DNA of 21,729 nt from a virus. The notes beneath the pieces were generated by a model. That model was not told the origin of the DNA, did no database searches, and saw only the letters and a program-made list of their open reading frames with translations. The stretch spans positions 1 to 21,729 of IMG/VR virus record IMGVR_UViG_3300025151_000347; one strand, given 5' to 3'. Position numbers and translations under genes: made by a program. This document shows positions 442 to 762 of this stretch, piece after piece; the stretch's first letter is position 1; every line of letters begins with the position of its first letter.

Positions 442-500
442 ATGCACAATGATTGACGAGGGTATTCAGTTTGGGATGCGGCCTATCACTCCGCTCCAAG

Positions 501-538
501 CGCGCGCCGTCCGCGTGCCCACAAGACGGCACTATTTT
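501..538 (+). ncRNA. Pseudoknot repeat, copy 1
   Basis: Stem 1 is CGCG 501-504 with CGCG 512-515. Stem 2 is GCCGTC 506-511 with GACGGC 525-530, six Watson-Crick pairs. Compared with the other copies, the outer pair of stem 2 is switched from C-G to G-C, and a T-G wobble is a T-A pair here, which supports real pairing. The first loop is one base. A TATTTT tract follows at 533-538. Confidence 0.5.
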
Positions 539-563
539 GGCTAGGGTCTCCAGCCCTGTAACG

Positions 564-600
564 CACGTTCCCGTCCGTGTGCCAGAAGGCGGGCTTAATT
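564..600 (+). ncRNA. Pseudoknot repeat, copy 2
   Basis: Stem 1 is CACG 564-567 with CGTG 576-579. Stem 2 is CCCGTC 570-575 with GGCGGG 588-593, including one T-G wobble. The connecting loop TGCCAGAA (580-587) resembles TGCCCACA of copy 3. The tail CTTAATT is the least T-rich of the four. Confidence 0.5.
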
Positions 601-631
601 GGGCAAGAGGGCTGAACACACTCTCTCCTTG

Positions 632-668
632 CGCGTTCCCGTCCGCGTGCCCACAGGCGGGGCTTTTT
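632..668 (+). terminator. Pseudoknot repeat, copy 3, terminator-like
   Basis: Stem 1 is CGCG 632-635 with CGCG 644-647. Stem 2 is CCCGTC 638-643 with GGCGGG 656-661. A five-T run at 664-668 follows directly, so stem 2 alone could act as a rho-independent terminator on the + strand. The pseudoknot and the terminator readings are not exclusive. Confidence 0.5.
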
Positions 669-723
669 AGGCTATGACTGATGTCTATTTTTTACTTTCC
701 TGTAATAGGCAGAAGTCGACTGA

Positions 724-762
724 CCACGTTCCCGTCCGTGGAGCCGGAGGCGGGTTTTTTTT
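724..762 (+). terminator. Pseudoknot repeat, copy 4, terminator-like, just before a ribosome site
   Basis: Stem 1 is five pairs (CCACG 724-728 with CGTGG 737-741). Stem 2 is CCCGTC 731-736 with GGCGGG 749-754. Eight Ts (755-762) follow, the best terminator tail of the set. It is immediately followed by GGAG (763-766), the ribosome binding site of the ATG at 771. A terminator touching a ribosome site suggests a control element in the leader of the downstream small genes, unless that operon starts from its own promoter. Confidence 0.55.

Follow-up and report, generated by a model that had tools for sequence, protein, structure and literature searches.

The window analyzed here, a 21.7 kb fragment of an uncultured phage taken from a virus record, carries a tandem array of four units that belong to an RNA family outside Rfam, widespread among marine phages and previously uncatalogued. 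Each unit, about 57-85 nt long, is a three-way junction made of a closing helix (PA), a variable hairpin (H) and a stem (S1), and a pseudoknot (S2) between the S1 loop and the 3' flank locks the unit. The motif was found in more than 100 IMG/VR stretches among the matches listed; most of these phages have a single array, which is intercistronic and made up of 1-4 units. The topology of the element resembles xrRNA, and its arrangement resembles ToxI arrays.

The array spans positions 472-754, and not 501-762 as an earlier note on this DNA had placed it, and it is located between two genes of the same strand, a 146-aa ORF without PHROG or Pfam match and a gene for a 29-aa membrane-type peptide without PHROG match (Table 1). 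Among isolates, the closest PolA to that of the window is found in phage DSL-LC04 and Pelagibacter phage HTVC023P (~53% identity). The four copies described in the earlier note, with their strand order, loops and stem changes, are all present in the sequence: copy 1 combines the S1 GCGCG/CGCGT with the S2 GCCGTC/GACGGC, and copies 2-4 share the S2 CCCGTC/GGCGGG, their S1 being GCACG/CGTGT, GCGCG/CGCGT and CCACG/CGTGG, respectively. The full unit architecture fits the four of them, unit 4 with a long H, and the three-way junction of this last unit appears already in the plain minimum-energy fold of its stretch. That note had also considered the spacers unrelated and the copies classic H-type pseudoknots; each spacer in fact carries PA and the hairpin H of the next unit, and the pseudoknot stands but the bare H-type geometry does not, since the second loop includes the 3' strand of PA and the unit is thus a three-way junction. 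As side observations, neither PHROG nor Pfam has a match for a 77-aa ORF of the window, ORFs related to this one and to the 146-aa ORF adjoin arrays in related phages, and a gene for a single-span membrane peptide of 29-33 aa also follows the array in L070, L101, L038, L045, L025, L131, L032 and L088.

Table 1. Features of the array and its surroundings in the window (CM, covariance model; paired strands are separated by a slash, 5' strand first).
Feature	Position	Strand	PA	H	S1	L1	S2	Basis or remark
Upstream ORF, 146 aa	1-441	+						stop codon 30 nt 5' of unit 1
Unit 1	472-530	+	472-475 (TGGG)/518-521 (CCCA)	478-481/491-494	500-504/512-516	505 (C)	506-511 (GCCGTC)/525-530 (GACGGC)	CM match 471-534, E 8e-5
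Unit 2	537-593	+	537-541/581-585	542-547/553-558	563-567/576-580	568-569 (TT)	570-575 (CCCGTC)/588-593 (GGCGGG)	CM match 536-597, E 9e-9
Unit 3	601-661	+	601-604/649-652	606-611/621-626	631-635/644-648	636-637	638-643/656-661	CM match 599-665, E 2e-9
Unit 4	670-754	+	670-673 (GGCT)/742-745 (AGCC)	676-679+683-689/704-710+714-717 (long)	724-728/737-741	729-730	731-736/749-754	CM match 705-758, E 5e-4
T-run linker, Shine-Dalgarno GGAG (763-766), spacer to next start codon	755-770	+						sequence
Downstream membrane-type peptide, 29 aa	771-860	+						sequence
ORF, 77 aa	873-1106							

Covariation between viral copies proves that the predicted fold is supported by evolution. An IMG/VR search with the pattern CGTTCCCGTCCGNG-gap-GGCGGG, which leaves a single base free in either strand of stem 1 (X and X'), returned at least 119 stretches. 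Among the matches listed there were 111 distinct viral copies, and X paired with X' in all of them (A-T 60, G-C 33, T-A 9, C-G 7, G-T 2; no mismatches), that is, 109 Watson-Crick pairs of all four kinds plus two G-T pairs, whereas the same pattern in cellular genomes, a control whose matches are mostly accidental, paired in 35 out of 119, near the random level. When both S2 strands were left free, 34 distinct matches were obtained; 32 of them pair at six of six positions through five different combinations (CCCGTC/GGCGGG, CCCGTC/GACGGG, CCCAGC/GCTGGG, GCCGTC/GGCGGC and CCCACC/GGTGGG), and the other two, with two of six positions paired, are accidental. Because these patterns left the tested bases free, S1 and S2 are established without selection for pairing. 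These tests lend strong support to the proposal that the stems covary and that the array is a new RNA element of phages, and the related phages, checked for copies with broken pairing in either stem, did not refute it.

Additionally, a fold descriptor detected 245 places in the fetched loci, which had partly been fetched through the CCCGTC core, compared to 37 in Markov shuffles, and this core was present in 194 of the 245. In an alignment of 55 units found with the descriptor, 13 of the 15 pairs change on both sides and 93% of the cells pair, the H helix being outside this pair count and checked sequence by sequence; double-change cells were 95 against 21 expected, and none of 500 shuffles reached any of the five measures. 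The free-base tests outweigh this alignment, because its 55 units came from the fold descriptor. Since the CCCGTC core served to find most units, members that diverge from it are under-represented in these counts.

Nearly every copy has hairpin H 5' of stem 1. On the 5' side of H there is a PA strand of 4-5 nt (most often GGYC or GRCC) whose complement, the PA 3' strand, forms part of the second loop of its own unit. In 121 of 161 units this strand is a perfect Watson-Crick match for loop bases 2-5 (for example GACC/GGTC, GGTC/GACC, GGGC/GCCC, GGCT/AGCC and GTAC/GTAC), whereas 2000 permutations gave 34 such units on average and never more than 51. The whole PA-H-S1-PA architecture with its S2 lock was parsed in 156 of the 161 distinct units. 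The consensus of the unit is TTA-[GGYC]-a-H-n4..5-gcXCG-UU-CCCGUC-CGX'Gu-[GRCC]-GAA-GGCGGG-RCUWWUU. Not only the fold is kept, as had been thought at first: the core CG-UU-CCCGUC-CG ... GAA-GGCGGG is near-invariant across 99 clusters, with a U.G wobble in the knot core of ~85% of the units, whereas PA and H differ freely between units through compensated changes. A T-rich tail is present at many units. The summed helix energies, which leave out the pseudoknot loop penalty, have a mean of -29.8 kcal/mol against -20.3 for the best non-knotted fold, an average gain of 9.6 kcal/mol. Plain folding of 51-nt windows hid the fold (z +0.5 to +1.1) and was discarded as a test, since neither PA nor H is included in these windows and the program does not allow pseudoknots. 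Judged by the identity between units, which is 0.69 for the same array position and 0.61 within one array, the array positions evolve separately.

Regarding its distribution, we examined 17 long contigs and the window, 18 contigs that may be incomplete: 16 have one array place, and a second place was found in G001 and G019, always with 1-4 units per place. The two places of G001, at 28647 and 33233, share a strand and are separated by 4.6 kb. Among PolA relatives chosen regardless of the motif, units were present in loci with a PolA identity of at least ~72% (most of L120-L151, plus L160) and absent from the more distant relatives. BLAST against isolate phages gave only noise, and the covariance model detected no unit in the isolate phages DSL-LC04, HTVC023P, 023Pt_psg01, HTVC027P, CRP-901 and phiA008. 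The search of cellular genomes returned 118 stretches, nearly all of them due to chance, and true units only in two metagenome-assembled genomes, L224 (JAAXIF010000089.1, Sphingobacteriales) and L301 (JAESRW010000002.1, Flavobacteriales), which are probably misbinned phage contigs. Both are contigs of ~32-34 kb binned as Bacteroidota, a possible lead to the host. The comparison with Rfam that had been proposed gave no covariance-model match at gathering for Rfam 15 in the window and seven related loci, and lax settings on positions 420-880 gave a single chance-level match (E 5). Our literature search found no paper on this element.

The genes around the array change from phage to phage. In the 97 arrays with flanks, a gene of the same strand lies upstream in 92, and the downstream gene is on the same strand in 69 and on the opposite strand in 28. 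A start codon with a Shine-Dalgarno sequence occurs within ~40 nt 3' of the array in 56 of the 97, and where a gene directly follows, its start codon is mostly 15-20 nt 3' of S2. The immediate neighbours fall into 28 upstream and 30 downstream gene families, which were defined by simple ORF finding and clustering and are not independent events, since related phages share neighbours. The genes adjoining the arrays match DUF669, DUF3310, HTH, SNF2 or nothing, and the constants across arrays are the direction of transcription and the preceding gene, with no particular neighbour. No gene family is common to all 18 contigs, the widest being present in 11 of them, and a universal partner gene was therefore rejected. 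A CRISPR-like array was also rejected because of its irregular spacing, the interleaved covariation and the lack of a Cas protein among the array-adjacent genes searched, and so was a small ORF, since not all of the spacings between units (63, 68 and 93 nt) are divisible by three. With respect to particular neighbours, a DUF669 gene is the commonest one immediately upstream (18 loci such as L001). A terminator-like GC-rich hairpin with a T-run (of the GCGTG...CACGC-TTTTT type) lies between the last unit and the next gene in L034, L043, L062, L065, L074, L087 and L110, and the gene behind this hairpin often codes for a 511-aa SNF2-type helicase.

ToxI, AntiQ, CptI and the phage pseudo-ToxI also consist of tandem pseudoknotted units in one array, sometimes with a terminator-like hairpin after it. 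However, ToxI is an H-type knot with single-stranded tails (PMC5086642), whereas the phage units are three-way junctions, formed by pairing between loop 2 and the PA strand upstream of it, and they are diverged and unevenly spaced. A profile search for a ToxN-like gene (PF13958) gave no match in 19 contigs and likewise none in the control genomes. The array is not ToxI, as its fold differs and no toxin gene was found in this search without a positive control, and the doubt already expressed about a ToxI identity was well founded, the fold being different and longer. Furthermore, a ToxIN locus and a gene-specific riboswitch both misfit the 28 upstream and 30 downstream gene families.

Our best guess, a tentative one, is that the array could be a trans-acting tandem decoy RNA that titrates a host factor. 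It would be transcribed together with its operon, fold one unit at a time and act in trans, and the surface binding a host RNA-binding factor would be the conserved core, namely the inner pairs of S1, the UU loop, CCCGUC/GGCGGG with its U.G wobble and the GAA linker. Several units would multiply the binding sites and so titrate the factor, whose most plausible identity would be a host RNase, a toxin or another anti-phage or gene-control protein. Reading of the core by a partner is suggested because the core keeps its sequence whereas the changes in the outer helices (PA and H) are free but compensated; the partner would more likely be the host's, because no phage gene is common to all carriers, and the action more likely in trans, because neighbours vary and arrays lie at operon ends. 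In this regard, the 28 of 97 arrays before an opposite-strand gene and those before a terminator-like hairpin point toward trans action, and independently evolving tandem units fit several binding sites. There is a precedent in the pseudo-ToxI of phage TE, which is made by the phage and neutralises a host toxin (PMC5086642). Nevertheless, the Shine-Dalgarno start near 56 of 97 arrays also fits a cis role, and conservation of the core could serve tertiary structure instead of a partner.

The units may, and we take this as a serious possibility short of an expectation, represent a new class of RNA-only phage effectors shared between lineages, which would either bind and neutralise some factor of the host, perhaps a nuclease used in defence, or make the host's RNases stall as xrRNAs do. 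To our knowledge, the latter would be the first such element in a prokaryotic system. If it binds a host factor, the array would serve uncultured ocean phages as a counter-host device made of RNA only; if it stops exonucleases, the principle of the xrRNAs, described until now for RNA viruses, would extend to phages. Because the covariation is unusually clear, little more is needed to prove the fold, and synthetic RNA allows its function to be tested immediately.

The main rival to the decoy, which we consider unlikely, is that each unit could mechanically halt a 5'-3' exoribonuclease of the RNase J type, leaving a stable downstream mRNA or array RNA. The xrRNA of mosquito-borne flaviviruses is described as a three-way junction with a pseudoknot between the loop of the third hairpin and the downstream region, occurs in tandem too, and in one case blocks bacterial RNase J1 (PMC5760640). 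The phage units have this junction and this pairing of the third-hairpin loop with the 3' flank, in the order closing stem, hairpin, hairpin, closing stem and loop-to-3'-flank pseudoknot, and are also tandem copies located past a coding region, where, coming after a gene, they may terminate an operon. The gain of 9.6 kcal/mol in summed helix energies over the best non-knotted fold (loop penalty left out) would also favour a block. In contrast, the phage element belongs to a DNA phage and has another sequence and a six-pair pseudoknot. The second xrRNA pseudoknot, between the 5' nucleotides and the junction, is not supported, as the best of 15 position pairs reached only a z of 2.7 and the neighbouring pair is unsupported, and a purely mechanical block leaves the strict S2 sequence unexplained.

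A role in cis, with the last unit just 5' of the Shine-Dalgarno controlling translation of the downstream gene as a riboswitch or protein-bound switch, seems to us improbable. The start codons mostly 15-20 nt past S2 and the Shine-Dalgarno start downstream of 56 of 97 arrays would suit it, and H-type pseudoknot riboswitches occupy comparable places: preQ1-I and SAM-II/SAM-V type riboswitches have a compact pseudoknot near the Shine-Dalgarno, as in the phage element. However, the latter has no Rfam match and an extra junction, and is also present where no same-strand gene follows. A consistent regulated gene was not found, with 30 families downstream, an opposite-strand gene after 28 of 97 arrays and a terminator-like hairpin after some, and the equally tight spacing at the upstream stop codon suggests that closeness to the start codon may be mere compactness. 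The glutamine-I and glutamine-II riboswitches share the marine setting and a three-way junction (I) or a pseudoknot (II) near the start codon, but the phage element has another sequence, no Rfam match and no consistent downstream gene, and the resemblance was dropped since the published sequence differs.

An element of the upstream mRNA 3' end, which would guard against 3'-5' decay or end or pause transcription (a GC stem followed by RCTWWTT), is a little less probable still. A same-strand gene upstream in 92 of 97 arrays and the T-rich tail of many units are consistent with it, but this tail is often broken (CTAATT), or missing where the next gene is convergent, a separate terminator-like hairpin is sometimes present, and neither the conserved pseudoknot core nor the 28 upstream gene families would be explained. 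Lastly, a DNA-level feature (origin iterons, protein-binding repeats) or chance is very improbable: one place per genome near replication genes would agree with the former, but the interleaved covariation with G-U allowed and the units' orientation on the strand of the preceding gene point to an RNA rather than a DNA element, and the Markov-shuffle and cellular-genome controls rule out the latter.

As a minor observation, the hairpin H contains AUCA(C) in 46 of 98 first units (for example in L037, L057 and L053, and in the window in the H loop near 482-490) against 8 of 58 later units and 8% in shuffles. This motif vaguely resembles the 16S 3' end.
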